NCBI RefSeq assembly: GCF_023169885.1
Contig: NZ_AP025516.1
Span: forward strand, 124,001 to 188,000
DNA: 64,000 nucleotides
Direction of reading: 5' to 3'
DNA from: Desulfofustis limnaeus
GTDB taxonomy: Bacteria > Desulfobacterota > Desulfobulbia > Desulfobulbales > Desulfocapsaceae
The notes beneath the pieces were generated by a model that was given only the letters and a program-made list of their open reading frames with translations, did no database searches and was not told the origin of the DNA. The translations under genes were made by a program, and so were the position numbers. Position 1 is the stretch's first letter. The number at the start of each line of letters is the position of its first letter. This document shows, piece by piece, positions 773 through 62,481 of this stretch.

Positions 773-3427
773 TTAGTTGGAGCCGCTGTAGAAACGCCAC
801 TGACCGTTACTCAGGTTATGGGCGTATTTCATGACCAATTTCAGCGGCCGACCTCTCCCTATCTCGGTGCATTCCAGACGAAAGATCAGGAGATCGCCCA
901 CCTGTTTTTCGAAAATGACGGCCGGGTCGACCAGTGATTCCGGAGGTGAGGCCGTATAGTGTTTGGTAAACAGCTCAGCGAAATGCTCTTCGAGATAACT
1001 GATCTTATCGGCAAGCAACCGGTCGGTCTTGGCCTGGCTGATGGCCTGTTCGGTCTCTTTGAGGGTGGCCGAGAATTCCGGGTCGTGGGCAAACTCGCTG
1101 GCGATTATGGTTGTGGTGATGGTTTGTAGTTTATCCAGCGCCGCCTGATAATTTTTTTCTTTCAGGAACTTGGCCGCTTCCTGTTTGTCGCGGATGACGG
1201 CAGCCTGGAGCAGCGTCCGCGCCAGCTTTTTCTTGTTATCCTCAGTGTTGCTTTGCTTAAGTAGATCGCTGTTGCTTTCCAGGATGGAGATGGCTCGTTC
1301 GTAGTTGACGATAGCCTTGTCCCACTCGGCCGAGGTGAAGGCGTTCCTGCCACTGTTGATGGTCTCGTACAACTCCGCCTTGACCATGAGTTGCTTTAAT
1401 TCCTCTGTCGTTGCCGGGTCATCACGTTTGGCCGATTTGATCGCCACCTCGTAGGCGGCTCGATAATGGGCAACGGCGTCTTGCCACTGTTGGGCGGCAA
1501 AGGCGATATCCCCCTTTTCTTTGGCCGTCGCCACCGAGATCTCTTCCAGTTTACCGGTCACGGAAGCAATGATTTCGGCCTTGTTCTCGATGGTGAGGTC
1601 CTTGGCCAGGAACAGAGCATTTTCCAGATCTGCGGTGGCCAGTACCCACTTCTCCAGCCTGATATACTCTTCTCCGGAACGAAGGAGCGTGTTGAATCGT
1701 GCCGTCTTCTGCTTCTCGGTGATGGCAAAGACCAACTCCTGGTCAATGGATGGTTCACCAGCTGCCAGGGTCAAGGCTTGATCGTAATTCGCTACGGCTT
1801 GTTGCCAGTCTTGGTTGGCGAAAAAGGAATCGCCTTCCTTGACAAAATGGTTAAAGGCGCGGACTGACTTGACAACGTCTTTGGGCAGATATCTACCATC
1901 GAAAAAGAGGTTGCCGGCCAGGCCTTGATGAAGGACTTCCGATTGCAAAACGGTCTCGATTTCACGCATGAGCAAGTCCCTGGCGCCGCCTCGGAAGAAT
2001 TGTACCTTGCTGGCTGTCTCCAGAGCTGACTCGCACTGCCGTTCAGCTTCGGTAAAACGATTTTGTTTGAGTATGGTTTGGCACTCGGCAAACTTTTTCT
2101 GGGCGTCGTTGAGACGTGCATTGTTCAGGAAAAAAGAGAATGCAGCCGCCGCGACCGCTATCAAGAGAACAACACCGATGGCATAGGGGATGAGTTTGGA
2201 ACTCTGACGGGCGGTATCCTCGAAGAAGGTTCGCGTGTCGCTTTTCCGGGGTGCTGTTTCTCCACGGTCGAAATCACGGAGCACGGTCCCTTCTTCTGCG
2301 GGGTATTCTTCCCTGTCAGCAGAAGGTTGTGGCGTCTCAATCCAATCACCAAGCAATTCCTTGGCCTGGGCTGTGCGGTCCAGGTCTTCAGTCAGGCCGG
2401 GATAGTCGGAAACGACCTTCTCCACCTGTTTGAAGGCATTGTATGCCTTACCGGGATCACCCTGGTGCTCATGGTCGGTTCCTTGGTTGTAGAGTTCTCT
2501 GGCCTGCTGCAGTGCACTATCGGCCTGGTCGCTGAGGCGGGTCTTGTCGGCAAAGTCCTGGTCGGCAGAAAGGCCGTCGAGCACGGTCTTCAGTTCGTAG
2601 AAGCGTTTCTGTTTGGCCAGCAGTTTGCAGCGGTCGAGGTCGATAGGGGCAGGCGCGCTTGTACCTCTATCAGCAGGCGGAGGGGAGAGTTCGTCGATGG
2701 TCGGTTCTTTCTGTTCAGCACCAAAGAAATTATAATCGTTTTCCAGGAAGCTTTCGTCAAGGGTGTCGACGGCTTCTCCCGAAGTGGTGGACGACGTGTC
2801 TCGCGACGGACCTCTGTCGGTTGGCTCATGTTCGTCGTGGGGAGGTGGCTCAAGAACTTCTTCGAAGGAGGAGAGGATCGGGTCGGTGTTATCGTCTTCA
2901 CGCTCTTCCAGCAGCAGAGTGACGTCGTCACCGAGGGACTCGTCCAGGGAAAACGTGTCGTCATCTGCCTCGACGGCAAAATCTCTGTGGTCGAACGGTA
3001 GCCTGTCCGGATGGTCTTTGTACCATTTCGCTGCCTCCTCATTGAAGGCGTTGCTGGTGGAAAAGACGTGGCCGCCGATCATCCGGCCGATGTGCATGAT
3101 CAGATCACCGATGGTCCGATCCTTTTCCCAGAAATCGCCGATGCAGATGGCGGCGGGGTCAAAATCGGGATGGAAAATAGGTGTCTTCGGTTTGCAACTG
3201 GGCGGGAAATGAGGAAATCCAAATGGGATGCTGATGGTTACCACATGACTTTCCTGCTCCCCGATCTCACCTGAATTGTCTTTGTATATCCCTTTGACCT
3301 GATACGCTATTTCGTATTTCTCCGGGGGGTCGCCATCAACCGGAGTCACCGTGATGGAGGGATTGCCGGCGAACTGCCGTGTGATCTCCTGATAAATGGC
3401 CTCAAGATGCTTGGTAGCTGTTGCCAT
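773..3427 (-). CDS. E2-ubiquitin-conjugating-like domain fused to a membrane segment and TPR repeats
   Basis: An 884-residue protein of unknown function. Residues about 5-145 resemble an E2/UBC fold: a FPHFPP stretch (E2 proteins have YPFxPP), then HPD at 86-88 where E2s have HPN, then Cys95 in AAICIGDFW at the catalytic-cysteine position, then W100 and TIGDLIMHI matching the E2 W..TI..IL..I pattern. Residues 150-260 are an acidic, low-complexity linker, 265-360 look like helical repeats, and 411-434 are one hydrophobic membrane span. Residues 440-800 are TPR-like helical pairs, followed by a separate ~80-residue C-terminal domain. An upstream ATG at 3478 is possible but lacks a ribosome site and adds 17 non-conserved residues. 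It is divergent from a cNMP/DUF4388 gene. No E1, ubiquitin-like or JAB peptidase gene is nearby, so conjugating activity is only a hypothesis. Confidence 0.85.
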   Translation of the reverse strand: MATATKHLEAIYQEITRQFAGNPSITVTPVDGDPPEKYEIAYQVKGIYKDNSGEIGEQESHVVTISIPFGFPHFPPSCKPKTPIFHPDFDPAAICIGDFWEKDRTIGDLIMHIGRMIGGHVFSTSNAFNEEAAKWYKDHPDRLPFDHRDFAVEADDDTFSLDESLGDDVTLLLEEREDDNTDPILSSFEEVLEPPPHDEHEPTDRGPSRDTSSTTSGEAVDTLDESFLENDYNFFGAEQKEPTIDELSPPPADRGTSAPAPIDLDRCKLLAKQKRFYELKTVLDGLSADQDFADKTRLSDQADSALQQARELYNQGTDHEHQGDPGKAYNAFKQVEKVVSDYPGLTEDLDRTAQAKELLGDWIETPQPSADREEYPAEEGTVLRDFDRGETAPRKSDTRTFFEDTARQSSKLIPYAIGVVLLIAVAAAAFSFFLNNARLNDAQKKFAECQTILKQNRFTEAERQCESALETASKVQFFRGGARDLLMREIETVLQSEVLHQGLAGNLFFDGRYLPKDVVKSVRAFNHFVKEGDSFFANQDWQQAVANYDQALTLAAGEPSIDQELVFAITEKQKTARFNTLLRSGEEYIRLEKWVLATADLENALFLAKDLTIENKAEIIASVTGKLEEISVATAKEKGDIAFAAQQWQDAVAHYRAAYEVAIKSAKRDDPATTEELKQLMVKAELYETINSGRNAFTSAEWDKAIVNYERAISILESNSDLLKQSNTEDNKKKLARTLLQAAVIRDKQEAAKFLKEKNYQAALDKLQTITTTIIASEFAHDPEFSATLKETEQAISQAKTDRLLADKISYLEEHFAELFTKHYTASPPESLVDPAVIFEKQVGDLLIFRLECTEIGRGRPLKLVMKYAHNLSNGQWRFYSGSN

Positions 3428-3699
3428 GATTGGATCCCGGTTACGGAAAGGTGTTGAGGGCGGATGCAATGGAGCCATTATATCAACTTAATGAAACAAC
3501 ACCAAAAAAAAATATGAGGCTGGCGAGGTCCGGGAGAATGGTTCTTTTGTAAAACATTCCGGGGGGAAATGATGGGTGGACGGGCGTAGAATTTTCGTAA
3601 AAAAGTCTCGCCAATCGGAAACCACTGGGTATATTGGTTTGGTGCCAACTCGTGCCAGGTGGCTTCACTATCGGACAAAAAGATGCTCGTGCAAACGGA

Positions 3700-4758
3700 A
3701 TGAAACCGTTTATCGCTCATTTTGAGGTCGTCGAGGACAACAATTGTCCCCTCTATCGAGTGGGAGACTGTTTTCGGTTGACGCAACGGTCGGTTTCTCC
3801 CCCGGAGAACAAGGAAGTCTGCCTTATTCTGGTGCGGGAGATGACCGAACTGCTTTTTGTCCTCCTCGGCGAACCGGCAGACCAATCGCCAGACCAGGAA
3901 AGACGGTTCAGTTGCAGTGGTTGCACCGGTTTGATCAAATTCCGTCTGCTGCCGGCCGAGACTGATGGCTGTTCCGAGTCCGGAGCCGAGGTCATCCTCA
4001 ATGTTGAGCAGCAAGCCTTGCTGGGCCAGATTGTTGAATGCCCCCTTTTTCGTACCGTCCCTCCGCGCCACCTTCGCGACATGATGGAATACTTTCGAGA
4101 GGAGCGGTGTCGGCAGGGTAAGATCCTGATCAGAAAGGGTGAGCCGAATCTCGATCTCTTTGTCATTCTTTCCGGACGGCTCAGTGTCGATGATGGGCCG
4201 GTGCATATCACGACGCTGGGGCCGGGCGAAATTTGCGGAGAAATGAGCTACCTGGTCGGTAATGTGGCGGGGGCCACAGTATCGGCCTTGGAGGAAACGG
4301 TGCTGGTGGCTATCGGTGGGGAGTATTTCAATAAAATTATCGAGCAATCCCCATCGGTTCAACTGTTCATGGCGCAACTCCTGGCCGAGCGACTCGCTCG
4401 TGCCAACAGCGCCCGAGCCCATTCCTTTGAATCATGTATGCAGGGAAGGCTCAAAGAGATGGCGCCCGCCGAACTCTTCCAGATACTGCACATGCACCAG
4501 AAGACCGGGGTGCTCACCCTCCATTTCTCCGGTCGGGAGGCAGAGGTCGCGTTTCGTGAGGGGTGCATCATCAATGCCCGTTACGGGGACCTGGAAAACC
4601 AACAGGCGATCTACGCCATGCTGGCGGAACGGGAGGGCGTTTATATCTTCCGCACCGGCCTTGCTCCCCATCAGATGAAGGCAGCGGAGATAGGCGATTT
4701 TATGGCTCTGTTGATGGAAGGAGTGAAACGGGTTGATGAAAGCCGGGAGCTTCAGTGA
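3700..4758 (+). CDS. Cyclic-nucleotide-binding domain protein with C-terminal DUF4388
   Basis: A 352-residue probable signalling protein. Residues 1-90 hold a small domain with NNCPLYRVGD and a later CSGC, resembling the short TIGR04076-type module. About 110-240 form a cNMP/CRP-like beta-roll (KGEPNLDLFVILSGRLSV, then GEICGEMSYL, close to the phosphate-binding cassette). About 255-345 match DUF4388/PATAN (LFQILHMHQKTGVLTL). There is no DNA-binding helix-turn-helix, so it probably acts by protein contacts rather than as a CRP-type regulator. The start at 3700 was chosen because the conserved part begins at once there; an upstream ATG at 3634 gives unconserved residues. It is divergent from the E2-like gene across about 270 bp. 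The ligand is unknown. Confidence 0.82.
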   Translation: MKPFIAHFEVVEDNNCPLYRVGDCFRLTQRSVSPPENKEVCLILVREMTELLFVLLGEPADQSPDQERRFSCSGCTGLIKFRLLPAETDGCSESGAEVILNVEQQALLGQIVECPLFRTVPPRHLRDMMEYFREERCRQGKILIRKGEPNLDLFVILSGRLSVDDGPVHITTLGPGEICGEMSYLVGNVAGATVSALEETVLVAIGGEYFNKIIEQSPSVQLFMAQLLAERLARANSARAHSFESCMQGRLKEMAPAELFQILHMHQKTGVLTLHFSGREAEVAFREGCIINARYGDLENQQAIYAMLAEREGVYIFRTGLAPHQMKAAEIGDFMALLMEGVKRVDESRELQ

Positions 4759-4798
4759 TCGGTGCCGTCGCCGGTGGCAACAAGAGAGGCGACCTTGC

Positions 4799-5422
4799 CT
4801 ATCCCGCAAATGGATCCAATTGGCGGATCTGGGTGAAACTGTCCACGTGATATTCGGCCGGTAGATCGGGGCTGCGAAAAGCGATCAACGAAACTCCTGC
4901 CGCTTCGGAGTGCTGCCGGTCGATTATCGAGTCGCCGATATAGATCGCTTCTTCGGCGTCGCAGCCAAAATATGCGAGAATATCGAACAAGGCGTCGGGC
5001 GCGGGTTTGGGACGGGGCACATCGAGAGCGGTCACCACCCGTTCGAAGTAATGGGCCAGATTGAACGTGTGCAACAGCGGTTGCATGGTGGTGGTGCGGT
5101 TTGTTGAAATTGCCAGGCGGTACCGGGATCTGGCAAACTCCAGGAAGTCAATGAGATCCGGCTCCATGACCATGTAAGACAAATAGGGGGTATAGTCCAG
5201 ATTGAGCCGGTATCGGTGCACCTCATCCATGCGGTGCGGGGGGTGGTGTTTAAAGATGCGGTTTACCGAGTCGGTCACGTTATGCATGTGGACATAGTCC
5301 ACCTCTTCTTCACTCATCTTCGGATAGCCGAAGGCGGTGAGCAGGTCGTTATAGTAGCGACGGTTGGTTTCTCTCGAGTCGAACATGACTCCGTCGCAAT
5401 CGAAGATGACGGTTTTGAGCAT
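4799..5422 (-). CDS. HAD-superfamily hydrolase, phosphoglycolate-phosphatase-like
   Basis: A 207-residue soluble phosphatase of the haloacid dehalogenase superfamily. All four motifs are visible: FDCDGV near the N-terminus (nucleophile Asp), STN for motif II, the Lys in RPKPAPD for motif III, and IGDSIID for motif IV. A helical cap lies between motif I and II, as in the Gph/PGMB subgroup. The substrate cannot be told from the sequence. It is the last gene of a minus-strand run secDF, cysteine-cluster protein, HAD, with a 33-bp gap to the gene before it, so cotranscription is likely. Confidence 0.88.
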   Translation of the reverse strand: MLKTVIFDCDGVMFDSRETNRRYYNDLLTAFGYPKMSEEEVDYVHMHNVTDSVNRIFKHHPPHRMDEVHRYRLNLDYTPYLSYMVMEPDLIDFLEFARSRYRLAISTNRTTTMQPLLHTFNLAHYFERVVTALDVPRPKPAPDALFDILAYFGCDAEEAIYIGDSIIDRQHSEAAGVSLIAFRSPDLPAEYHVDSFTQIRQLDPFAG

Positions 5423-5455
5423 GACGGTGTGAGCTATCGGTTTCTTTATTGGGAA

Positions 5456-6199
5456 TCAGCCGCGTGACTCGGAGCCGCAAGCGAAGAGTTCGTGGTCGAG
5501 CCACACCAGTGCGTAACTGAGCAAGGCTTCGTCGTCATCAAAAACGGCAGCATCCGGCGTGCTGTGGAAGTCTATAAAGCCCTCGCTGAGTTTCTCCCGA
5601 AAAGTGTCCAGATCATAAAGGGCGAGAAGATAGGCGCGCTGCTGGCGGACGGTCAAGTTCATCCCCTGTCTGATGTGATCATGTTGCGTGATGCCTGCCA
5701 CCAAGTCGTTGAAGGTGTGGTAGACAGCCAGATCCTGCGCATGCAGGAACCCCTTCGGGGTGTTCAGCAACGGTTCGAGAAATCCTTGACAATGGGTTTC
5801 CTGGAGCAGCACAAAATGTTCTTCGCAGCGGTCGCCGCTCCTGGCGACAGCTCTACCCAACGGATAGGTCCGGCAACTACTTGGGCGATCCGGATAAATG
5901 CTGCAACCCTCGGGCCCAAGGAAGACACAACTGGCTTTCCCGTCGTCCACCATGGTCAGGTAGAGTCGAGGAAACGGTTCATCGTCGTCTTGTTCGATGA
6001 TGACGAACCGCTCGAGTACTTCGGTGGAAGAAAGTCCTGTCGCCTTTCTGAGCCGCAACACATCGTATGGGGTGAGCCCGAGCTCCAGGTCGTGACAACA
6101 CCTGGTGAAGCAGGGAACACCTCGGTGACAATGAAAGGCAAAGGGCTCGTTGGCGTCGATGCGTCTTACGGCCCCGCAAGGCACGGCAGCGTGGTTCAT
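5456..6199 (-). CDS. YkgJ-family cysteine cluster protein
   Basis: A 247-residue member of the UPF0153/YkgJ family, small cytoplasmic proteins thought to carry zinc or an iron-sulfur centre through a conserved cysteine set. The cysteines are in place: CHRGVPCFTRCC near residue 25 and CVFLGPEGCSIYPDRPSSCR near residue 100, the two classic YkgJ blocks. The C-terminal half has no recognisable domain. It starts 4 bp after the secDF stop codon, which suggests translational coupling. Function is not known for the family, and a link to membrane protein export is only guilt by position. Confidence 0.87.
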   Translation of the reverse strand: MNHAAVPCGAVRRIDANEPFAFHCHRGVPCFTRCCHDLELGLTPYDVLRLRKATGLSSTEVLERFVIIEQDDDEPFPRLYLTMVDDGKASCVFLGPEGCSIYPDRPSSCRTYPLGRAVARSGDRCEEHFVLLQETHCQGFLEPLLNTPKGFLHAQDLAVYHTFNDLVAGITQHDHIRQGMNLTVRQQRAYLLALYDLDTFREKLSEGFIDFHSTPDAAVFDDDEALLSYALVWLDHELFACGSESRG

Positions 6200-6203
6200 C
6201 TGC

Positions 6204-8789
6204 TTAGGCCGCCGATCGTTTCCACATGGTCAACAGCGGGGCGGCGACAAAGATGGAAGAATAGGTGCCCACCGCGATGCCCACCAGCAAGGCAAACGAG
6301 AAATCGTGAATGACCGAGCCGCCGAAGAAAAACAAGGCCAGTAGTGTCATGGCGGTGGTCAGCGACAGGACCACCGTCCGGTTGAGTACTTGATTGATGC
6401 TGTCGTTGATCAGCGGACCGTCGACGGTGGCGGCCTCATCCTTTTTCATGTTCTCGCGGATTCGGTCGAAGACCACCACCGAATCGTTGAGGGAGTAGCC
6501 GGCCAGGGTAAGTAAGGCGGTGACGATGAGCAGGGTCATTTCAATGTCCATCAGCCAGCAGATACCGAGAACGGCCATGACATCATGAAAGGTGGCGGCA
6601 GCTGCCGCCAGGCCGAAGCGCAGATCAAAACGGAAGGCGAGGTAGATAATGACCCCGGCCAGTGAGATGATGATAGCCAGGATTGCTTTGTCGCGGAGAA
6701 CGGCGCTGACACTGGAACCGATTTCCGACTGGCTTTCCAAGGCAAACCCCTTGTCGCTCAAATCCTCGGCGAAAATGGCCTCGACTTGCTCGCTCAAGTT
6801 GGCGACCACCTCTTCCGACTTCTTGATCTTGACGATCAACCGGTTCTCGTTTTCCACCTCTTGCAAGTCGACTTCACCTATCTCCCCGCGCTGAAATGCT
6901 TCCCTGACCTCAGCCATGGTGAATGGCTGCTCGGCCTTGTATTGCAACAGCGATCCACCGGCGAAATCGACGCCCATATTGGCTGTTCCGCGAGCCACCT
7001 GCACCAGGGCGATCAGTCCGATGAGCACCATGACGCCGGAGACGGATAGGGAAATTTTCTTGATCCGCATGAAGTCGATCCGGGTATCGCCGATCATCTC
7101 CGTGAGGCGAAGCTCCTTTATCCACCGTTTACCGGACAGGATGTCGAAGATCAGGCGCGAGCAGAACAGGGCGGTAAAGAGATTGAAGATGATACCCAGC
7201 GACAGGGTAACGGCAAACCCTTTGATCGGCCCGGTCCCGAAAAGGAAGAGGGCAAGGGCGGTGATCAGGGTGGTGATCTGGGAATCGACAATGGTCGACA
7301 ACGCTTTACTGAAGCCGCCTTCTATACCTGAGCGGACCGCTTTGCCGAGCCGAAACTCCTCCCGCATTCGCTCATAAATGAGCACGTTGGCATCCACCGC
7401 CATGCCGACCGCCAGAACGATACCGGCGATACCGGGAAGGGTCAGGGTGGCGTTGAGGATGGCTAGGCCGGAAAAGAGAAAGAGGATGTTGAGCGTTAGG
7501 GCGAGGTTGGCGATAATGCCGGCCAGTCGGTAGTAGATGATCATGAAGCCGATGACCGCCACCGCGCCGAACAGCCCGGAAATGATGCCTTTGTTGATCG
7601 AATCCTGACCGAGGCTTGAGCCGACCGTCAGGTTCTGGACGACGTCAACCGGAGCCGGCAAGGCCCCGACCCGCAGGACGATGGCCAGGTCTGAGGCCTC
7701 TTCGTGGGTGAAACTTCCGGAAATCTGGGCCGAGCCTCCAAGAATCCGTTCGCGAATCACCGGGGCTGACTTGACGTTGCCGTCAAGGACGATGGCCATG
7801 CGTCGTCCAACGTTTTTCTCGGTGAGCGTGGCAAACACCTTGCCGCCCCGAGACGTCAGGTCGATGCTCACATAGGGTTCGTTGAACGACCCGCCGATGC
7901 GGACTTGCGCATTTTTGACCATGTCTCCGGTCATCAATACCTTGTTTTCCAGGAGGATAGGAGAAAATGATTCGATCTGGGTCTGCCGGTCGGTATGACG
8001 CTCGAAATAGATCGAGGTGTTTTCCGGCAGGTGCGGAGCGAGCATACGGTTGAGCTCGCGAACCTGGGAGGCGTCCTGCCAGCTGCCGGACCATTGACCG
8101 CTCTCGATAGCCTGATTCACCAATTGATTCGGGTCGACACCAGTACCTTCGGCCACCAGTTTGAATTCCAGCTGAGCCGTATCGCCGATAAGGCTCATGG
8201 CTCGTTCAGGATCCCTGACGCCGGGCAACTGAACGACGATTTCATCGGAACCCTGGCGGATGATAACCGGTTCGGCGACGCCGAATTGGTCGATGCGGTT
8301 TCGGATGATCTCCAGAGACTGGGAGACGGCGTTGTTGTTGATGAAATCGATTTTTTCCTGACTCAGGCTGAGCGTAATGCGGGGGAAGCTGCCCTCCTTC
8401 GCGTCGACGCTGATATCGAGCTCTTCTTCGAAACCATCCTGGACGATGGCGCGGATGCGCTCGACGGCACTGGTGTTGGGGACGGTAAAAACGATCGAGT
8501 TCCTGTCTCCGGTAGAACTCTGCACGACACTGATTGATTGTTCGGCAAGGGCGTCGCGAAGATCGTTGGCCGCCAACTCCAAGGTGTTTTCCCTGGCCTT
8601 CTGCAGGTTGACTTTGAGTACCAGATGCATGCCTCCCTGCAGATCGAGACCGAGGCGCAAGCCCTCTGGCGCCATATAGGTTTTCCACCAGGTGGGTGTC
8701 TTGTCGTAAAAGGAAGGGACAACCGTAACGACGGCCAGAGTGATGAGAAATATCAGTAGACCGAGCTTGAGTTTTATGGTCGTGTTCAT
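6204..8789 (-). CDS. secDF: Fused protein-export membrane protein SecDF
   Basis: SecD and SecF form the proton-driven accessory unit of the Sec translocon that pulls proteins out on the periplasmic side. Here both are one 861-residue protein. After an N-terminal membrane span comes the SecD signature GLRLGLDLQGGMHLVL (residues ~44-59), a large periplasmic P1 domain, and the GMAVDANVLIYERMREE block. The SecF half begins near residue 570 with its own NMGVDFAGGSL motif and ends with a second set of spans containing the YSLNDSVVVFDRIREN block. Twelve spans are expected. No yajC lies next to it. The upstream region has a good promoter overlapped by a perfect palindrome (see 8852-8887). Confidence 0.96.
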   Translation of the reverse strand: MNTTIKLKLGLLIFLITLAVVTVVPSFYDKTPTWWKTYMAPEGLRLGLDLQGGMHLVLKVNLQKARENTLELAANDLRDALAEQSISVVQSSTGDRNSIVFTVPNTSAVERIRAIVQDGFEEELDISVDAKEGSFPRITLSLSQEKIDFINNNAVSQSLEIIRNRIDQFGVAEPVIIRQGSDEIVVQLPGVRDPERAMSLIGDTAQLEFKLVAEGTGVDPNQLVNQAIESGQWSGSWQDASQVRELNRMLAPHLPENTSIYFERHTDRQTQIESFSPILLENKVLMTGDMVKNAQVRIGGSFNEPYVSIDLTSRGGKVFATLTEKNVGRRMAIVLDGNVKSAPVIRERILGGSAQISGSFTHEEASDLAIVLRVGALPAPVDVVQNLTVGSSLGQDSINKGIISGLFGAVAVIGFMIIYYRLAGIIANLALTLNILFLFSGLAILNATLTLPGIAGIVLAVGMAVDANVLIYERMREEFRLGKAVRSGIEGGFSKALSTIVDSQITTLITALALFLFGTGPIKGFAVTLSLGIIFNLFTALFCSRLIFDILSGKRWIKELRLTEMIGDTRIDFMRIKKISLSVSGVMVLIGLIALVQVARGTANMGVDFAGGSLLQYKAEQPFTMAEVREAFQRGEIGEVDLQEVENENRLIVKIKKSEEVVANLSEQVEAIFAEDLSDKGFALESQSEIGSSVSAVLRDKAILAIIISLAGVIIYLAFRFDLRFGLAAAAATFHDVMAVLGICWLMDIEMTLLIVTALLTLAGYSLNDSVVVFDRIRENMKKDEAATVDGPLINDSINQVLNRTVVLSLTTAMTLLALFFFGGSVIHDFSFALLVGIAVGTYSSIFVAAPLLTMWKRSAA

Positions 8790-8851
8790 AAAAGGTTCCG
8801 GCAGGGGGTTGAAGGAAATGGCTCTTTGCTTGAGTCCTTGTCAGCCTGGCG

Positions 8852-8887
8852 ATTATAACGTAATGCCCGAATCTTGCAAGATTCGGG
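8852..8887 (-). promoter_or_regulatory. secDF promoter overlapped by a 22-bp perfect palindrome (candidate operator)
   Basis: Read on the minus strand, TTGCAA (8874-8879) and a perfect TATAAT (8852-8857) are 16 bp apart and lie about 65 bp upstream of the secDF start. The -35 lies at the centre of a perfect inverted repeat, CCCGAATCTTG followed directly by CAAGATTCGGG (8866-8887). A dimeric regulator binding there would block RNA polymerase. The palindrome has no loop and no T run after it, so an intrinsic terminator for larB is less likely. Which protein binds it is unknown. Confidence 0.6.
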
Positions 8888-8958
8888 GTGGTTTTGCGAA
8901 AAAATAACGGAGGTTACGGGCAACCTGTGGGATAGTGAGCGAGCGCCGTGCACCGCTG

Positions 8959-9741
8959 TTACCGCTGGCCTTCGGCCGGTTTCACGGTTTGCGTTCTATT
9001 GATCGCGGAGGCCAGGCAGGCTGCTCCGAAACCGTTATCGATATTGACCACGCCCAGACCGGGCACGCAGCTGTTGAGCATGCCGAGCAAGGCGGCGAAG
9101 CCGCCGGTTCCGGTGCCGTAACCAACGGACGTCGGTACGCCGATGACCGGGCAGCTGACCAGCCCGCCAACCACGCTGGGCAGGGCCCCCTCCATTCCGG
9201 CGACGACGATGATCACCGCTGCCTCGCTGAGCAGTTGTTGCCGGGTGAGCAGTCGGTGCAGGCCGGCCACCCCGGCGTCGTAAAGGGTTTGCACCGGATT
9301 GCCGAGATACTCGGCGGTGATCCTGGCTTCTTCCGCCACACCAAGATCAGAAGTGCCGGCGCAGATCACCAGGATCAGGCCCTGGATTCCTTCGCTCTGT
9401 ATTCCACGGCCTGGACCGGTGAGTATTCGGGCCTGGTGGTGATAGTGGAGTTGAGGGAGAGCGGTCGTGACCAGGTGGGCTTTCTCTTCGTTCACCCGGG
9501 TCACCAACAGCGGCCCGCCTCGCTCGAGCATGGCTCGGGCGATGGTGATTATCTGGGCAGCGGTTTTGGCCTCGCCGTAGATGACCTCGGGGACGCCGGT
9601 GCGCAAGAGCCGCTGATGATCGACACAGGCGTGTTCCAGCGTCTCAGCCGGGAAATGGCTGAGACGCTGGATTGTGTCTTCAATCGACAGAGAGCCGTCG
9701 AGCAGTTGTTGGAGCAGCCTTTTGAGGGTGTTTTGATCCAT
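8959..9741 (-). CDS. larB: LarB-like pyridinium-3,5-biscarboxylic acid mononucleotide synthase
   Basis: LarB carboxylates nicotinic acid adenine dinucleotide to make the precursor of the nickel-pincer cofactor of lactate racemase-type enzymes. The 260-residue protein has the AIRC-type (PurE-like) C-terminal domain: CAGTSDLGVAEEA, YDAGVAGLHRLL, VVAGMEGALPSVVGGLV and VPTSVGYGTGTGG, all typical of LarB rather than PurE. Start 9741 was chosen because conserved sequence begins there (MDQNTLKRLLQQL); a longer frame to 9846 adds an unconserved leader. No larC, larE or larA is in the window, so the rest of the pathway must lie elsewhere or the protein has another role. Confidence 0.88.
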   Translation of the reverse strand: MDQNTLKRLLQQLLDGSLSIEDTIQRLSHFPAETLEHACVDHQRLLRTGVPEVIYGEAKTAAQIITIARAMLERGGPLLVTRVNEEKAHLVTTALPQLHYHHQARILTGPGRGIQSEGIQGLILVICAGTSDLGVAEEARITAEYLGNPVQTLYDAGVAGLHRLLTRQQLLSEAAVIIVVAGMEGALPSVVGGLVSCPVIGVPTSVGYGTGTGGFAALLGMLNSCVPGLGVVNIDNGFGAACLASAINRTQTVKPAEGQR

Positions 9742-9995
9742 GTGGCCCGGCAGTGACGTGTGAGAGTTAACGCTACGGGAAGACAAAGGGCCACAGTAGC
9801 ATGATCGGCAGGAACCTGCAAAGGTATCGATACCGTCGCTGTTCACCGTTATTTATTCGGACAGCAAGCACTACATTTTGCGCATCTCCCGCAAGTCTGT
9901 TAGAATCGCTGCCTGGTGCCGACTCTGCTGGCAGAGCGGCGCCCCCTTTTGATTTGTCGTCTACCGGCAAGCTAACGTCGCAACAGGAGAAGAGC

Positions 9996-11015
9996 ATGAA
10001 CCAACAGCATCTTCCCGCCTATCTGAAAGCGTTGATGAAAACCGGGCAGCTGGGTTGTCCGGTGTCGGAGCTGCAGGTGATTCAGACGCATATTTCTTAC
10101 GTTCTGGTGGCCGGGCAACAGGTCTATAAGTTTAAGAAGCCGGTGAATTTCGGCTTTCTGGACTTCACCACGTTGGAGCAAAGAGGCTATTTCTGCCGGC
10201 GCGAGGTGGAGCTCAATCGCCGTCTTTGTCCCGACATCTATCTCGGGGTCTTCACGGTCAACCGGGACGGAGATGACTACCGCCTCAACGGAACAGGAGA
10301 GGTGATCGAGTACGGGGTGAAAATGGCGCGCCTGCCTGAAGAGTTGATGATGGGGCGAGTGATTGCTGCCGGGAAACTGGAATACCAGCATCTGGATGCG
10401 ATTATTGCTCGTCTCGTCCCGTTTTATGCGCAGGCGGCCGGGGATGAAAAGATCAAGGCCTTCGGTAAAGTGGAGGCGGTCGGCGTCAATGTGATCGAAA
10501 ACTTCCAACAGACCGAATCGTTTGTTGACGGACCGGCCTTGAGCCGGGCTCAGTTTGACCGGATCGGTGCTTTCTCCCGGACCGTTCTTGCCGATTCGGC
10601 GCGCTTTGATCAACGCATCGCCGCAGGCCGGATCAGGGATTGCCACGGAGATCTGTACTCGGCCAATATCTGCCTCGATGATCGGATTCATATTTTTGAC
10701 TGTATCGAGTTCAACGAGCGGTTCCGCTACGCTGATGTGGCGTCTGATGTCGCTTTCCTGGCCATGGACCTCGACTATCACGGTTTGGCACCGATGGCGA
10801 CATATTTCCTGGAAGGCTTTGCCCGAGCCGCCGATGATCCCGATTTGCTCCAGCATGTGGGGTTCTACCAGTGTTACCGCGCCTACGTGAGAGGCAAGAT
10901 AGGCCTCTTTACCGCCGCCGATCCGGCCGTTGAAAAGACGGTGGCCGAGGCCTGCACCGAGCAGGCCAAGCGCTATTTTGAGTTGGCCGACCGTTATGCC
11001 CAAACTGGAATCTGA
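9996..11015 (+). CDS. Aminoglycoside-phosphotransferase-fold protein (COG2187-like)
   Basis: A 339-residue protein with a protein-kinase-like APH fold. The catalytic loop is DCHGDLYSANIC (residues ~210-221), followed by IFDCIEFNERFRYADVASD with the metal-binding Asp. The early VYKFKKPVNFGFLDF block supplies the nucleotide-binding Lys and is typical of COG2187. The start codon has an AGGAG ribosome site 7 bases upstream. In many proteobacteria this domain is fused to a P-loop kinase; here the partner is the next gene, overlapping by 20 bp. The substrate is unknown, and real antibiotic resistance is unlikely for this group. Confidence 0.83.
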   Translation: MNQQHLPAYLKALMKTGQLGCPVSELQVIQTHISYVLVAGQQVYKFKKPVNFGFLDFTTLEQRGYFCRREVELNRRLCPDIYLGVFTVNRDGDDYRLNGTGEVIEYGVKMARLPEELMMGRVIAAGKLEYQHLDAIIARLVPFYAQAAGDEKIKAFGKVEAVGVNVIENFQQTESFVDGPALSRAQFDRIGAFSRTVLADSARFDQRIAAGRIRDCHGDLYSANICLDDRIHIFDCIEFNERFRYADVASDVAFLAMDLDYHGLAPMATYFLEGFARAADDPDLLQHVGFYQCYRAYVRGKIGLFTAADPAVEKTVAEACTEQAKRYFELADRYAQTGI

Positions 11016-11631
11016 GGCGCCCCGGTTGGTGGTATTTTTCGGCCTGGTGGCTTCCGGCAAGAGCCATCTGGCCAAACGGTGGGCCCGAGCGCGCCACTGT
11101 CCCTACTACAACACCGATATCGTGCGCAAACAGCTGTTCGGCCTCGATCCGCAGAGTCGGCAGCATGCGGGCATGAGCCAAGGCATTTACACGGCCGAAC
11201 ATTCCCGGCAGACCTATCGGGAGATCGTTCGCCGGGTACGGATTGATCTGGACGAGCGGTCGCGAGAGGTGGTGGTTCTGGATGGCTCCTATCGGGAGGA
11301 GGCTGAGCGGGCACGACTGGTGACCGAGTTCGGCGGCCGGGCGGAGATCTTTTTTATCTATTGCTCTTGTTCTGAGGACGAAACCAGGAAGCGGCTGGCG
11401 AGACGGGCTCTCGACCGGCGTGCGGTATCGGATGGACGATGGGAGGTTTACCTGTATCAGAAGAGCGGTTTTGCGGTACCGCATGAGATTGAGGGGGCTC
11501 GGTTGCTCGTACTCGATACGGAAAACGATACCGACGTATTGCTCAGAGCCGTCGATGCCTTCGTCGAGACTCCGGCCCTGGGCGAAGATCGGCCGATCCG
11601 AACGCCCGATGGTTCTCGTAAAAATGAGTAA
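10996..11631 (+). CDS. P-loop kinase (COG0645-like), partner of the upstream phosphotransferase
   Basis: A 211-residue P-loop NTPase. The Walker A is GLVASGKSHLAKRW near residue 15-28, followed by YYNTDIVRKQL, which resembles the substrate-binding part of gluconate kinase/zeta-toxin-like kinases. A VVVLDGSYREEAER block and a lid rich in arginines (RKRLARRALDRR) come later. The start lies inside the 3' end of the phosphotransferase gene (20-bp overlap), so the two are translationally coupled. It corresponds to the C-terminal half of longer fused homologues. The phosphorylated substrate is not known. Confidence 0.82.
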   Translation: MPKLESEAPRLVVFFGLVASGKSHLAKRWARARHCPYYNTDIVRKQLFGLDPQSRQHAGMSQGIYTAEHSRQTYREIVRRVRIDLDERSREVVVLDGSYREEAERARLVTEFGGRAEIFFIYCSCSEDETRKRLARRALDRRAVSDGRWEVYLYQKSGFAVPHEIEGARLLVLDTENDTDVLLRAVDAFVETPALGEDRPIRTPDGSRKNE

Positions 11632-11646
11632 ACACAAGGAAAAAAA

Positions 11647-12108
11647 GTGTACACGCGCATCTATTTTTTTCGCTTTCCCAAAGATACCAGTGATAAGCCG
11701 ATCATCTACCACCTGATCAAGAGGCACGAGGTGGAGGTGAATATTCTTCGGGCGGACATCCTGCCTCAGCGCGAAGGGGTTATGATTCTTGAGCTTCGCG
11801 GGGCGAAAAACAATGTCAAGGAGGCGCTGCACTATCTGGAAGGCCTTGGGGTGAGTATCGAACGGCTGGCTACCCGGGTTCGACGCGATGATGAGCGTTG
11901 TTTTCAGTGCGGCGCCTGTACCGGCGTCTGCCCAGTCGATGCGTTGTCGATCCGACGGCAGGATATGGCGGTCATTTTCGATCCCGACAAGTGTACCGGC
12001 TGCGGCCAGTGCGTTCTCGTTTGCCCGGTGCGGGCCATGGAGATGTCGTTGGGACGAGAGTGGTTTGACCTGGAGGGCTCGCGCACCTCAAGCGGCGTCA
12101 GTCGCTGA
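11647..12108 (+). CDS. NIL-domain ferredoxin, two [4Fe-4S] clusters
   Basis: A 153-residue protein. Residues 1-75 form a NIL domain (named after the C-terminal substrate-sensing domain of methionine ABC transporters), and the C-terminal part carries two ferredoxin motifs: CFQCGACTGVCPVDAL and CTGCGQCVLVCPVRAM, each CxxCxxCxxxCP. NIL-ferredoxins are common in anaerobic delta-type bacteria and methanogens and are linked to sulfur or homocysteine metabolism in some of them. The GTG start at 11647 follows an AAGGA ribosome site. It is 15 bp behind the P-loop kinase and converges with bamD, overlapping its 3' end by 11 bp. Confidence 0.88.
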   Translation: MYTRIYFFRFPKDTSDKPIIYHLIKRHEVEVNILRADILPQREGVMILELRGAKNNVKEALHYLEGLGVSIERLATRVRRDDERCFQCGACTGVCPVDALSIRRQDMAVIFDPDKCTGCGQCVLVCPVRAMEMSLGREWFDLEGSRTSSGVSR

Positions 12109-12892
12109 GAAAATTCATCCAGTCGGGAAGGGATAGCCCTTGGAACCAACGGGCGAAACCAGCGGCGGGAGGCTTGCCGGCTTGGATGAGTTCCAGCAAT
12201 TCCTGGGCGCGTGGTGCGATTCGAGAGTCTGGATACACAGCCAGGATGTAGTTGAGTCGGGCTTCCGCCTGTGAGTATTCTTTCGTCCTCAGAAAGAATT
12301 GCACGACGTTGAATTCATAGTTTACCAGAAACTCGTTGGCCGCTGCGATGCGGGCCCGCGCTTCTTCGGTGTACGGCGAAGTCGGGTAGGCTCGCAGTAA
12401 TTCACGAAAGGCCTGGATGGCATCGGTGGCCCCGCTGATATCCCGATCGATGGTATCGATGCGCTGATAATGGCACATGGCCTTCTGATACATCACGTAA
12501 GGGATCGCCTCGTTGGTCGGGTGCCGCTCCTCAAATTCCCGATAGAGAACGAGTGCTTCCGCGTACCGCCCCATGAAGTAGTTGGCATCCGCCGCCTTCA
12601 ACTCGGCCAGCGATGCCTCGGGACTGAATGGATAGCGGTCCAGTATTTCGTTGAAATAGTCCAGGGCCAGGTAATATTTGCCGACGTTGAACTCGTCCAT
12701 TCCCTTCATGATGAGTTGCTCGGCGGGCAGATGGACTTGTGCTTGTTCCTCAAAATTGAACAGCCCCTTGATACCGGAACAACCGGTCAGACTGAAAATC
12801 GACCAGGCCGCGATGAGCAGGCAATAGCGGGAGGACCAGCAGGCTGAGGCACGGCGAGAAACGATGGTCGTTCGTGGTGTCGTTTGGCTCAT
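12098..12892 (-). CDS. bamD: Outer membrane assembly lipoprotein BamD
   Basis: BamD is the essential TPR lipoprotein of the BAM complex, which folds beta-barrel proteins into the outer membrane. The 264-residue protein starts with a signal peptide ending in a lipobox, SLTGC, with Cys38 as the lipidated residue. About five TPR-like repeats follow (for example MKGMDEFNVGKYYLALDYF and EASLAELKAADANYFMGRYAEAL). Length and repeat layout match BamD/YfiO. The start lies 6 bp after the trxB stop, so it is probably the third gene of a trxA-trxB-bamD transcript. Confidence 0.92.
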   Translation of the reverse strand: MSQTTPRTTIVSRRASACWSSRYCLLIAAWSIFSLTGCSGIKGLFNFEEQAQVHLPAEQLIMKGMDEFNVGKYYLALDYFNEILDRYPFSPEASLAELKAADANYFMGRYAEALVLYREFEERHPTNEAIPYVMYQKAMCHYQRIDTIDRDISGATDAIQAFRELLRAYPTSPYTEEARARIAAANEFLVNYEFNVVQFFLRTKEYSQAEARLNYILAVYPDSRIAPRAQELLELIQAGKPPAAGFARWFQGLSLPDWMNFLSD

Positions 12893-12898
12893 GGCGTA

Positions 12899-13834
12899 TC
12901 AGGTTAGTCTTGTTTTAAGGTAGTGTTCGGCAGCGATGACGGCAGTTGCTCCTTCGCCGCAGGCGTTGACCACTTGGCGCATCAACTTGCTTCGTATATC
13001 CCCGGCGGCAAAGACGCCGGGGATGACCGTGCGGGTTTCGTTGTCGGTGCGGATGAAGCCCCACGGATCGGGATCGAGACGATCGATCGGCAGCATGTCG
13101 TTGTTTGGAGTTATACCGATGAGAATAAAAACCCCTTGCACCGAGATGGTTGAAATGCTCCCTGTCGAGTCCTCCAAACGCAGCCGTTGTACTTCTTTTT
13201 CACCCTCGATGGCGATGACCCGGGTATTCCAGATATAATCGATCTTCTTGTTGGCGAACGCCGTTTCCTGAATAATCTGGGTTGCCCGTAAGGTATCACG
13301 CCGATGAATTATGGTGACCCGACGGGCAAAGCGGGTCAGGTAGTCCGCCTCTTCCACCGCGGTATCGCCGCCGCCCACGACGGCCACGTGCATATCCTTG
13401 TAGAAGGGGGCATCGCAGGTGCCGCAGTAGGACACCCCTCTCCCGCTCAATTCCTGTTCACCAGGGACTCCGAGTTTGTTCGGCCGGGCTCCGGTACAGA
13501 TGATCAGGGTGGCACAACTCAGCGAACTGCCGTCGGCAAAGGACACCGTTTTCAAACCGCTTACAGACAGATCAACCGAGGCGACCTCTTTGCTCACGAT
13601 GTTGACCCCAAACCGCCTGGCATGGGCAGCCATTTTGTCGGACAGTTCGAAACCGGTCAAGCCGTCGGGAAAACCGGGGTAATTGTCCACCCAGTCGGTG
13701 TTGAGGACTTGGCCGCCCGGGACGCCTTTCTCGATCAGCAGGTGATAGATTCGCGCCCGCGCGGCATAGAGCCCAGCCGTCAATCCGGCCGGGCCGCCCC
13801 CGAGAATGACCAGATCGAAAGGGCGCTCACTCAT
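12899..13834 (-). CDS. trxB: Thioredoxin reductase
   Basis: A 311-residue flavoprotein that passes electrons from NAD(P)H to thioredoxin in the cytoplasm. The FAD-binding GGGPAGLTAGLYAAR is at residues 12-26, and the redox-active pair is Cys137-Cys140 (CGTC; E. coli has CATC). The second nucleotide-binding glycine motif is VVGGGDTAVEEADYL, and the FAD site GVFAAGDIRSK is near the C-terminus. HRRDTLRATQ in the NADPH domain keeps the basic residues usual for NADPH use. It lies 76 bp after trxA on the same strand; its natural substrate is surely that thioredoxin. Confidence 0.95.
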   Translation of the reverse strand: MSERPFDLVILGGGPAGLTAGLYAARARIYHLLIEKGVPGGQVLNTDWVDNYPGFPDGLTGFELSDKMAAHARRFGVNIVSKEVASVDLSVSGLKTVSFADGSSLSCATLIICTGARPNKLGVPGEQELSGRGVSYCGTCDAPFYKDMHVAVVGGGDTAVEEADYLTRFARRVTIIHRRDTLRATQIIQETAFANKKIDYIWNTRVIAIEGEKEVQRLRLEDSTGSISTISVQGVFILIGITPNNDMLPIDRLDPDPWGFIRTDNETRTVIPGVFAAGDIRSKLMRQVVNACGEGATAVIAAEHYLKTRLT

Positions 13835-60302: not shown

Positions 60303-62251
60303 TGGCTGATTCCCTCGTTATCGCCGGCCGATTTAGTGCCCTGTGGCCTCTTGGGCTGGGAATTGGTGCCGAGCTTTTTTAGATGGACCTGGAGGATCGA
60401 TATGGCTGCCGGCGTGATGCCGGAAATGCGAGATGCCTGCCCGAGTGATACCGGACGAACCGTGCTCAGCTTCTCCACCACCTCACGGGAAAGACCGGCC
60501 AGTGACGTGTAGTCGATATCGTCTGGTAACGAGAGAGATTCGAGTTTGCGGAAGCGGGCCACTTGTTCGTTCTGTCGATCGATATAGCCACGGTATTTGA
60601 CGCGGAGCTGGATGTCTTCTTTGTAAGCAGAGGTTGCCATCGCGCCGACCCGATCATCGGTGTCGTCTTGCCCCAGTTGCACCACCTGGTCGATGGACAG
60701 TTCGGGCCGACGCAGTATTTCGGCCAATGTTGTTTTTTGTTTCACTGGTACGCTGCCGTAAGCGGCCAGCGTCTTATCCAGCAGGGCGGAAGGCTTGACA
60801 GAAGCGCTTTCCAACGTGCTGATGCCGGCCTCAATTTCCTGCTGTTTACGCCGGAAGACGCGGTAACGAGGTTCGGGGAGCAGGCCGATGTGATAGCCTA
60901 TTTCGGAAAGCCGCGCATCAGCGTTGTCTTCTCGCAGCAGCAGTCGGTATTCGGCTCGCGAGGTGAACAGCCGGTACGGCTCCTTGGTCCCCCGGGTCAC
61001 CAGATCGTCGATGAGCACGCCGATATAGGCTTGGGAACGGTCGATGATCAGGGGGGCGCCCCCCCTGATGGAGCGGACGCTGTTGATACCGGCGATCAGT
61101 CCTTGGGCGGCGGCCTCTTCGTAACCAGATGTTCCGTTGATCTGCCCGGCCAGATATAAGCCGCGAATTCGTTTTGTTTCCAGCGATGGCAACAACTCAA
61201 GCGGATCCACGTAATCGTACTCGATGGCGTAGCCCGGTCTGATGATCACCGCTTGCTCCAATCCTTCGATGCTTCGGACCATCTCGATCTGTGTGGCAAG
61301 CGGCAAGCTGGTGGGCAGACCGTTTGGATATACTTCCGTTGTCTCTATGCCTTCCGGTTCCAAAAAAATCTGGTGGCGGTTCTTTTCCGGAAAACGCATC
61401 ACCTTGTCTTCGATAGACGGGCAGTAGCGAGCCCCGACTCCTTCGATGATTCCAGCGAAAAGCGGTGATTGATCGATTGCTCCCCTGATTATCTCGTGGG
61501 TTCTCTCGTTGGTGTAGGTAATATGACAGGGAAATTGTGGCTGCCGGTAGGCACCCTGATTGTCAAACGAGAAAAAAGACGGGGGCTCGTCGCTGTATTG
61601 CGGTTCGAGCCGCGAATAATCGATGGTAGTGGCAGCGAGTCGGGGTACGGTGCCGGTCTTCATCCGGCCGACATGAAAGCCCTGTTCACGAAACCACTGG
61701 GCCAGACTGACCGAGGGAGCATCACCCATGCGGCCGGCCGGGAAGTTTTTCAAGCCGATATGGATCAATCCGTTGAGAAAGGTACCGGTGGCTACCACCA
61801 CCGCTTTGACCCGGACCCGTTCGTCCAGGGAGGTGACCAATCCGACGATCCGACCGTCTTCGACAAGAAGGCGGTCCACCACGGCCTGACGAATGCTCAG
61901 GTTCGGTTGCTGTTCCAGCACCTGTTTCAGGCGGAGGCGATACAGCAGTCGATCGGCCTGGGCCCGTGAGGAGCGAACGGCCGGTCCTTTGCTGGTGTTC
62001 AAGCGACGGAACTGGATAGAGGTGGCGTCGATGTTGCGTGCCATTTCGCCGCCGAGAGCATCAATTTCCCGGACCAGATGCCCTTTGGCGAGCCCGCCGA
62101 TGGCCGGGTTGCAGGACATGGCGCCGATGGTGTCAACATTGATAACGGTAATTAGCGTCTTGCATCCCAACCGGGCGGCTGCCAGTGCTGCTTCGCAGCC
62201 GGCGTGGCCGGCACCGATCACCGCCACATCAAAGGTATTCAGGTCACTCAT
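60299..62251 (-). CDS. mnmG: tRNA uridine-5-carboxymethylaminomethyl modification protein MnmG
   Basis: With MnmE it makes the 5-carboxymethylaminomethyl group on wobble uridine 34. The 650-residue FAD protein begins [22 protein letters not shown], followed by [24 protein letters not shown] and the GRMGDAPS block; [18 protein letters not shown] lies in the middle. The C-terminal helical MnmE-binding domain ends with an unusually charged [14 protein letters not shown] tail. It lies about 230 bp downstream of mnmE. The order mnmE-mnmG is often found close to the chromosomal origin, though no origin is seen here. Confidence 0.97.
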
Positions 62252-62481
62252 CTTGTTTCCTGCTGGTTGACAGCTCGGTTGGTCAGGAGATTATCGTCCG
62301 GTGCTGCCTTGTGGTCTTGGGTAGCGGCGCCACTGTGTCACCATAACCTGTAGTTCCGGCGTACATCCAGTGTAGATGCCAGCCAAGATTTGCGTAGGCA
62401 AGGACGTTTTGTCGATGGGACCAACTCCTGCGAGCCGCAGGTGACCGAGCCGATGGTTATCGTCACGAGCAGAACACGTGG
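62252..62481. other. Intergenic region between mnmE and mnmG, no gene seen
   Basis: This 230-bp gap has no gene that I can support. It is the only larger break in the lgt, mnmG, mnmE run and could hold a separate mnmG promoter, but no consensus boxes stand out. Confidence 0.4.

Follow-up and report, generated by a model that had tools for sequence, protein, structure and literature searches.

An E2-fold domain with a variable catalytic position on a transmembrane TPR protein of Desulfofustis limnaeus, and its conserved divergent neighbour

The window analysed here is a stretch of 64,000 nucleotides from Desulfofustis limnaeus (Desulfobacterota; Desulfobulbia; Desulfobulbales; Desulfocapsaceae), positions 124,001 to 188,000 of contig NZ_AP025516.1. 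Its minus strand encodes a protein that joins a domain with the fold of ubiquitin-conjugating enzymes (E2s; UBC fold) to a transmembrane (TM) segment and a region of tetratricopeptide repeats (TPR), here called the E2-TM-TPR protein. The open reading frame (ORF) spans 773-3478 (minus strand), and the start conserved in relatives is the ATG at 3427, which gives 884 amino acids (aa). An earlier note, made from the letters of the window alone, had placed E2 motifs in this frame. FPHFPP, HPD (86-88), Cys95 and W100 were confirmed at the positions claimed there. Relatives are grouped into family f1, to which the window protein belongs, its sister family f6, and families f13 and f15. The gene has the following features.

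773..3427, minus strand: E2-TM-TPR gene, 884 aa plus stop (ORF, conserved start, full-length relatives)
2978..3427, minus strand: E2/UBC-like domain, residues 1-150, probably cytoplasmic (AF2, Foldseek, VIA-align, profile)
3194..3196, minus strand: Cys78, which is Cys in every f1, f13 and f15 row and Val or Ala in f6
3164..3172, minus strand: HPD, residues 86-88, HPN in classical E2s (row counts below)
3143..3145, minus strand: Cys95, where E2s have their catalytic cysteine; C, R, K, S, H, A or D among relatives
2198..2977, minus strand: variable acidic linker, residues 151-410 (low conservation, gaps)
2126..2197, minus strand: transmembrane segment, residues 411-434 (hydrophobic span, Lys/Arg richer on the E2 side)
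983..2122, minus strand: TPR-type helical repeats, residues 436-815, probably periplasmic (AF2, TPR profile matches)
776..982, minus strand: C-terminal beta-rich domain, residues 816-884 (AF2; conserved Cys853, Leu, Tyr and Trp)

The N-terminal domain has the UBC fold. The AF2 model of residues 1-150 (43-row alignment) reached a mean pLDDT of 87.5. VIA-align matched it to UBE2S (7ahf_A) with Z 13.8 over 131 aligned residues at 2.8 Å, and also to the FTS complex 8qat_D with Z 12.3. The best 50 Foldseek matches were all E2 entries or complexes (best E 5e-7; query TM-score 0.55 to 0.67). Consistently, phmmer of residues 1-166 against the PDB returned an E2 (2e2c) as the top match (E 5e-5), and a profile of 19 relatives found 241 distinct PDB sequences at E <=0.01 (best E 1.1e-7), of which the best 60 were E2s without exception. 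The Pfam family UQ_con matched the E2-TM-TPR protein at E 9.1e-5 with 22.5 bits, under the cut-off of 27, and this cut-off was passed by two relatives from outside the order, L099 (29.2 bits) and L098 (30.4 bits). Among 39 full-length rows of the protein the best conserved stretch was residues 76-100; the conservation values of this alignment at residues 151-225 are inflated by gaps. Fold, profile and conservation are concordant, which confirms that the observation exceeds chance.

The acidic linker and the single membrane span near residues 411-434 proposed earlier were also found, with one hydrophobic span detected. The region after the span was modelled by AF2 (37 rows) at pLDDT 93.6 as TPR-type helices followed by a terminal beta domain. 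Three TPR families of Pfam scored above their cut-offs (TPR_2 with 41 bits versus 27), and the PDB matches of the post-span region were TPR and other helical-repeat proteins, BamD included. The TPR repeats and the separate C-terminal domain of the earlier note thus stand, with the correction that this domain has just about 65-70 residues; the TPR part dominates the structural match lists of the whole post-span region. The 15 residues before the span hold 4.0 Lys plus Arg on average versus 1.6 in the 15 after it, and of the 60 rows with 500 aa or more, 52 showed this excess before the span. Because of this enrichment the E2 domain is probably cytoplasmic and the TPR part periplasmic. Just past the span, Cys449 and Cys465, 16 residues apart, were present in 40/40 own-family rows counted and absent from the 12 f6 rows checked. 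The pair is compatible with a periplasmic disulfide.

The E2-TM-TPR gene was found in 170 of 257 genomes in a search of the class, about two thirds, which divide into 83 with f1, 70 with f6, 16 with f13 and one with f15. Most genomes have one copy and a few have two. A scan of named genomes gave 43 loci, and the nearest relative, in Desulfofustis glycolicus, is 81% identical in the E2 domain. In a sample of the phylum 12 of 395 genomes matched, and G281 and G585 are the two of these that do not belong to the order. When their classes were searched, G585 was the only match among 46 genomes, and the search for the class of G281 covered one genome. The gene surroundings are recurrent: a HAD-like gene was seen at 40 and a SecDF-like gene at 39 of 44 loci (names by eye; some contigs are cut), and secDF- and bamD-like genes lie near E2-TM-TPR loci, again by eye. 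One scan of viral contigs gave no relative of the protein. A defence-island or phage origin was rejected on these recurrent neighbours together with the empty viral scan. Genome G125 has a second, short copy at locus L095 (6041-7654, plus strand), with 537 aa, Arg at position 95 and a short linker. A RecD2-like helicase gene (by eye) lies near it, and an ORF at 9875-10618 (plus strand) of the same locus has a long repeat of the Ser-Gly-Asp-Asp type.

The catalytic position was compared in 115 unique E2 domains from 138 rows, which comprise the E2 loci retrieved and the window and represent a subset of the 170 genomes. The order supplies 113 of these rows, and the other two are L098 and L099. 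Loci of named genomes without a family label were counted with f1, because they cluster with f1 in the tree. In the HMMER alignment the catalytic cysteine of UBE2C pairs with Cys95, so the window protein has its cysteine at the catalytic position, as the earlier note had it. This position is C in 50, S in 2 and H in 1 of the 53 f1 rows, C in the single f15 row, and C in 7, K in 7 and R in 2 of the 16 f13 rows. In f6 it is R in 40 and A in 2 of 42 rows, with C in none; the f1 paralogue has R, L099 has C and L098 has D. In total, Cys is found in 59/115 rows, and Arg, Lys, Ser, His or Ala in 55/113 order rows. Cys95 therefore varies freely across the order, which the earlier note had named as evidence against a conjugating role, but not inside its own family. 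The three f1 rows with Ser or His retain the remaining domain.

At the HPN site, HP is invariant; W100 is kept in 114 of the 115 domains. The third residue makes the site HPD in 111, HPA in 2 and HPN in 2 rows, the last being L098 and L099 only, so that all 113 order rows have HPD or HPA, and all 53 f1 rows have HPD. In an IQ-TREE tree the rows without Cys95 are scattered over several groups (the alignment has few columns and the outer branches are long), and the Fitch minimum on the FastTree tree of the 115 rows is 6 changes between Cys and non-Cys at position 95. On these counts, conservation extends to the fold and the HP-D-A-W segment and not to the catalytic pair. A classical conjugating enzyme across the family is not supported, as the catalytic residues appear too variable for it; a docking part in some regulatory complex is therefore more likely. 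A disulfide between Cys78 and Cys95 was also considered and is unsupported, as Cys78 persists in f13 rows with Lys or Arg at 95.

The two relatives from outside the order differ in their surroundings. The L099 E2 (G585) has 361 aa, the motifs HPNF..EVC and no TPR match, and is a relative at E 3.6e-36. Genes at this locus scored above the Pfam cut-offs for ThiF, JAB/Prok-JAB, Prok-RING_1, FHA, DnaJ, AAA and trypsin. The set at 4382-13595 (minus strand) comprises trypsin-like, activating enzyme (E1), JAB, FHA, Prok-RING_1, E2, DnaJ and AAA genes, with weak matches to DUF4234 in the Prok-RING_1 protein and to a zinc-ribbon in the E2. It is flanked at 1904-4378 by a gene that looks subtilisin-like by eye. 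This locus is an E1-E2-RING-JAB set, which we take to be of the Aravind type. L098 (G281; 5254-8418, minus strand) encodes 1054 aa with an E2 domain, weak TPR matches below the cut-off and Asp at the Cys position. By eye, its protein has a hydrophobic span and an adjoining gene is TPR-like and lipoprotein-like. The simplest history would be that an E2 from a conjugation set was captured onto a TM-TPR protein, its active site drifting afterwards; the direction of capture is tentative because the root of the tree is insecure.

Components of a ubiquitin-like system were searched for with ThiF, Prok-JAB, Prok-E2_B and Prok-RING_1 profiles and with the L099 E1 as query. The own genome of the window protein has two ThiF-type genes above the cut-off, one of which looks HesA/MoeB-like and the other TcdA-like by eye. 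Two weaker ThiF matches fall under the cut-off, and one of these (22.2 bits versus 28.1) lies in the window, far from the E2-TM-TPR gene, at 62126-62254 (minus strand) in an open frame of 663 aa. The profile search found no Prok-JAB in the own genome and no Prok-E2_B, for which the control genomes were equally without a match. Prok-RING_1 was above the cut-off in 0/252 order genomes and gave weak matches in 14/252; its control matched in one genome, under the cut-off, and the model gives 35 bits on L099. Prok-JAB had any match in 151/252 order genomes and a match above the cut-off in 80/252. Strong matches (E <=1e-15) occurred in 57 genomes, 22 with and 35 without the E2-TM-TPR gene, so JAB genes exist in some of the genomes that carry it.

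The L099 E1 query found 168/257 genomes at E <=1e-10, as expected for ThiF relatives. Its scores were 252 bits in G078, 154 in G138, 105 in G127 and at most 86 in all others; the best in the own genome was 52 bits, which is no close match. A dedicated E1 set of the L099 type thus does not travel with the E2-TM-TPR gene, and a divergent E1 may be present in the own genome. The E2 row of G078 has Arg95 and that of G138 has Cys95. In these two genomes (L184, G078 C1:3173825; L185, G138 C56:3428) a strong match to the L099-type E1 shares its contig with Prok-JAB matches a few kb away at most. No ThiF above the cut-off and no Prok-JAB lies beside the E2-TM-TPR gene in the window, and inspection of the recurrent neighbours by eye, which covered the first 50-100 aa of the ORFs, showed no E1 or JAB. 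The earlier note had described an architecture without such genes beside the E2 domain, and in this it was right for the window and the recurrent neighbours.

The domains with Cys95 (f1, f15 and part of f13) might nevertheless be membrane-tethered thioester or conjugating E2s that use a generic E1 of the MoeB/HesA type together with a protein like MoaD or ThiS, activity having been lost in the sister family. The near fixation of Cys95 in f1, the L099 relative with HPN and Cys beside E1, JAB and Prok-RING_1 genes, the HesA/MoeB-like gene (named by eye) of the own genome, and the strong L099-type E1 of G138 (Cys95), with a Prok-JAB match on its contig, all agree with this. However, HPD replaces HPN throughout f1, the own genome lacks Prok-JAB, the L099 E1 query exceeds 150 bits in just 2/257 genomes, one of which (G078) has Arg95, and the domain is otherwise intact in the three f1 rows that have Ser or His at 95. 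We regard this explanation as very unlikely. Active conjugation for the whole family was rejected, because Cys95 and HPN vary and the own genome lacks the set, Prok-JAB being missing and the L099 E1 query finding nothing close. The conjugating or thioester-relay role that the earlier note had put forward as a possibility is not supported for the family.

The earlier note also stated that no partner gene is within the window, which was wrong. A conserved gene lies divergently upstream and is a candidate partner by its linkage.

3700..4758, plus strand: candidate partner gene, 352 aa, with a four-Cys domain, a cyclic-nucleotide-binding domain and DUF4388
3428..3699, no strand: shared divergent intergenic region
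3700..3942, plus strand: four-Cys domain (CPLY ... CLIL ... CSGCTGLIKF), by Cys conservation
4102..4347, plus strand: cyclic-nucleotide-binding domain (Pfam 57.8 bits, cut-off 27.5)
4441..4743, plus strand: DUF4388 domain (Pfam 72 bits, cut-off 25)

When the neighbours of homologues were examined for conserved links, as had been suggested, this gene proved to be the divergent neighbour in 108 of the 130 loci whose upstream sequence reaches 1.5 kb or more. When identical E2 rows are collapsed, 108 loci are left, and it is adjacent in 88 of these. It is still adjacent at six f13/f15 loci where the SecDF-, HAD- and KdsD-like genes (by eye) have moved away. The four Cys of its N-terminal domain are kept in 109, 107, 106 and 106 of 111 aligned relatives; this alignment holds 111 of 115 genes and leaves out three with CPIY or CPCY for CPLY, plus L149, which has no start. 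The middle cyclic-nucleotide-binding domain is missing by length in 45/111 relatives, a number to which cut contigs may add. The four-Cys domain had no significant match in Pfam or NCBIfam (21 members; best E 0.07 and 0.03), and it occurs in 178/257 genomes. Across the 257 genomes, 165 have both the E2-TM-TPR gene and the partner domain, 5 the E2 only, 13 the partner domain only and 74 neither; these counts take any copy of the partner domain and ignore phylogeny. The own genome has three genes of the neighbour's build, two of them judged by eye. The two paralogues (L182, 5769-6839, plus strand; L183, 5669-6991, plus strand) have a four-Cys part and, by eye, parts of the cyclic-nucleotide-binding and DUF4388 types.

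Loss of the neighbour was compared with change in the E2 domain, setting aside four f1 rows of uncertain neighbour status. In f1, rows without the adjacent neighbour have longer E2 end branches (7 versus 42 rows, p 0.023) and longer root-to-tip distances (p 0.032), and Cys95 is lost in 2/7 of them versus 1/42 of those with it (p 0.050). The two HPA rows, L100 and L101 of f6, also lack the adjacent neighbour. A tie between neighbour loss and change of the E2 domain is therefore no more than suggestive. It also bears on the idea that Cys95 of f1 serves a chemistry other than conjugation, for example as a thiol that responds to redox state or metal and so adjusts the docking of the four-Cys partner. 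Such a role would fit the conservation of Cys95 in f1, with JAB missing from the own genome, the conservation of Cys78 in f1, f13 and f15, and the more frequent loss of Cys95 where the adjacent partner is missing. The numbers are small, however, the persistence of Cys78 beside Lys or Arg at 95 in f13 means that there is no obligate pair, and f6, which has lost both E2 cysteines, still has the Cys residues of the partner. We consider it improbable.

The reading that we prefer, with a probability of roughly one half, is that the E2 fold serves for docking in the manner of UEV proteins, is mounted on a transmembrane TPR scaffold and works with the divergent regulator. The protein would be a single-pass scaffold or receptor of the inner membrane. 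Its cytoplasmic E2-fold head would be a protein-docking module comparable to the eukaryotic UEV or FTS proteins, and the TPR array and the small beta domain would sit in the periplasm. The most likely partner would be the regulator encoded at 3700-4758, with its four-Cys domain (probably metal-binding), an optional cyclic-nucleotide-binding domain and DUF4388. The head would dock this regulator at the membrane and so may couple a cytoplasmic signal to the state of the periplasmic TPR part. Of the two possibilities in the earlier note, an E2 fold reused for binding accordingly agrees better with the data than conjugation. The analysis shows the fold, the architecture, the variable catalytic position, the gene linkage and the co-occurrence; we infer the topology, binding in place of conjugation, the identity of the partner, its metal binding and the direction of signalling. 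A more specific version is doubtful: the E2 of a bacterial E1-E2-RING-JAB set would have become the cytoplasmic docking head, and the regulators would be a new class whose four-Cys domain docks on it like a RING domain, giving a signalling pair without ubiquitin.

Several observations weigh against the docking reading. Cys95 is nearly fixed in f1, so it has some role there. The neighbour is not adjacent in 22/130 loci, including the paralogue L095 and the two relatives from outside the order; three of the 22 have just 1.5 kb upstream, and a renewed search of all 22 with extra queries found none. Co-occurrence tracks the families, and genomes often hold several copies of the partner domain. The f1 tests involve few rows with p values near 0.05, branch lengths showed no such difference in f6 (8 versus 33 rows) or f13 (1 versus 15), and six of the eight f6 rows without the neighbour retain HPD.

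The same gene pair could instead belong to an envelope assembly system. The E2-like head would then bind a cytoplasmic machine, such as the ATPase of a pilus or secretion system, periplasmic components would be assembled by the TPR part, and the DUF4388 gene would be its regulator or a stable neighbour. The E2-TM-TPR gene is usually single-copy in conserved chromosomal synteny, and its TPR part is similar to numerous TPR proteins, including BamD. DUF4388 is presumably the same domain as PATAN. PMC7690835 discusses PATAN proteins of cyanobacteria as candidates for connecting signals with the type IV pilus machinery; PMC7380572 terms PATAN a domain of undetermined function. A literature search on DUF4388, PATAN and cyclic nucleotide gave nothing relevant to the neighbour gene. 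Inspection of the recurrent neighbours by eye showed no pilus gene, despite the secDF- and bamD-like genes nearby, and the machine is without direct evidence. An assembly role is possible but rather unlikely.

An E2 fold thus resides in a chromosomal membrane protein of about two thirds of the searched order genomes, with its catalytic residues drifting. The variants that occur in nature at position 95 (Cys, Arg, Lys, Ser, His and Ala) offer material for learning what an E2 fold does in the absence of conjugation. The neighbour's four-Cys domain, present in 178/257 genomes, matched neither a Pfam nor an NCBIfam family. At title and abstract level, with subscription papers mostly outside its scope, the literature search found no description of the E2-TM-TPR architecture; searches on ubiquitin-conjugating enzymes in Desulfobulbaceae/Desulfobulb, also combined with tetratricopeptide, found none.

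Bacterial E2-like proteins have been described mainly in conjugation-type or defence operons. Unlike Bil, type II CBASS and Prok-E2 operons, the window protein has no adjacent E1 or JAB gene. The inactive E2/RWD-like domains of polyubiquitin-like (polyUbl) operons (Iyer et al. 2006, PMC1779556) are likewise bacterial E2-like folds, but they adjoin polyUbl and JAB-E1 genes and the window protein does not. Bacterial E2s are reviewed in PMC11354881, and the term 'tpr' is absent from this text and from PMC1779556. The L099 E2 has its Cys in the same column; it differs by HPN, the lack of a TPR match and a position near E1, JAB, RING, FHA, AAA and protease genes, which the window protein does not share. 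With eukaryotic E2s (PF00179 UQ_con; UBE2S, UBE2C, UBC9) the window protein shares a UBC fold of about 130 residues, the YP..PP-type and HP motifs and a Cys at the catalytic position. It differs from them by HPD in place of HPN, a Cys that is not conserved in the family, the TM and TPR fusion, and a genome without Prok-JAB or a close L099-E1 match. The E2-TM-TPR protein is therefore placed with E2 folds and not with active E2s.

UEV- and FTS-type E2 folds function without a required catalytic Cys. FTS (8qat_D) is among the structural matches of the window protein; a UBC fold without the Cys, as in UEV proteins, is found in f6 and in part of f13, whereas the window protein itself still has its Cys. 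In contrast to UEV and FTS proteins, it is bacterial, membrane-anchored and fused to TPR, and would represent a bacterial parallel to the UEV proteins.

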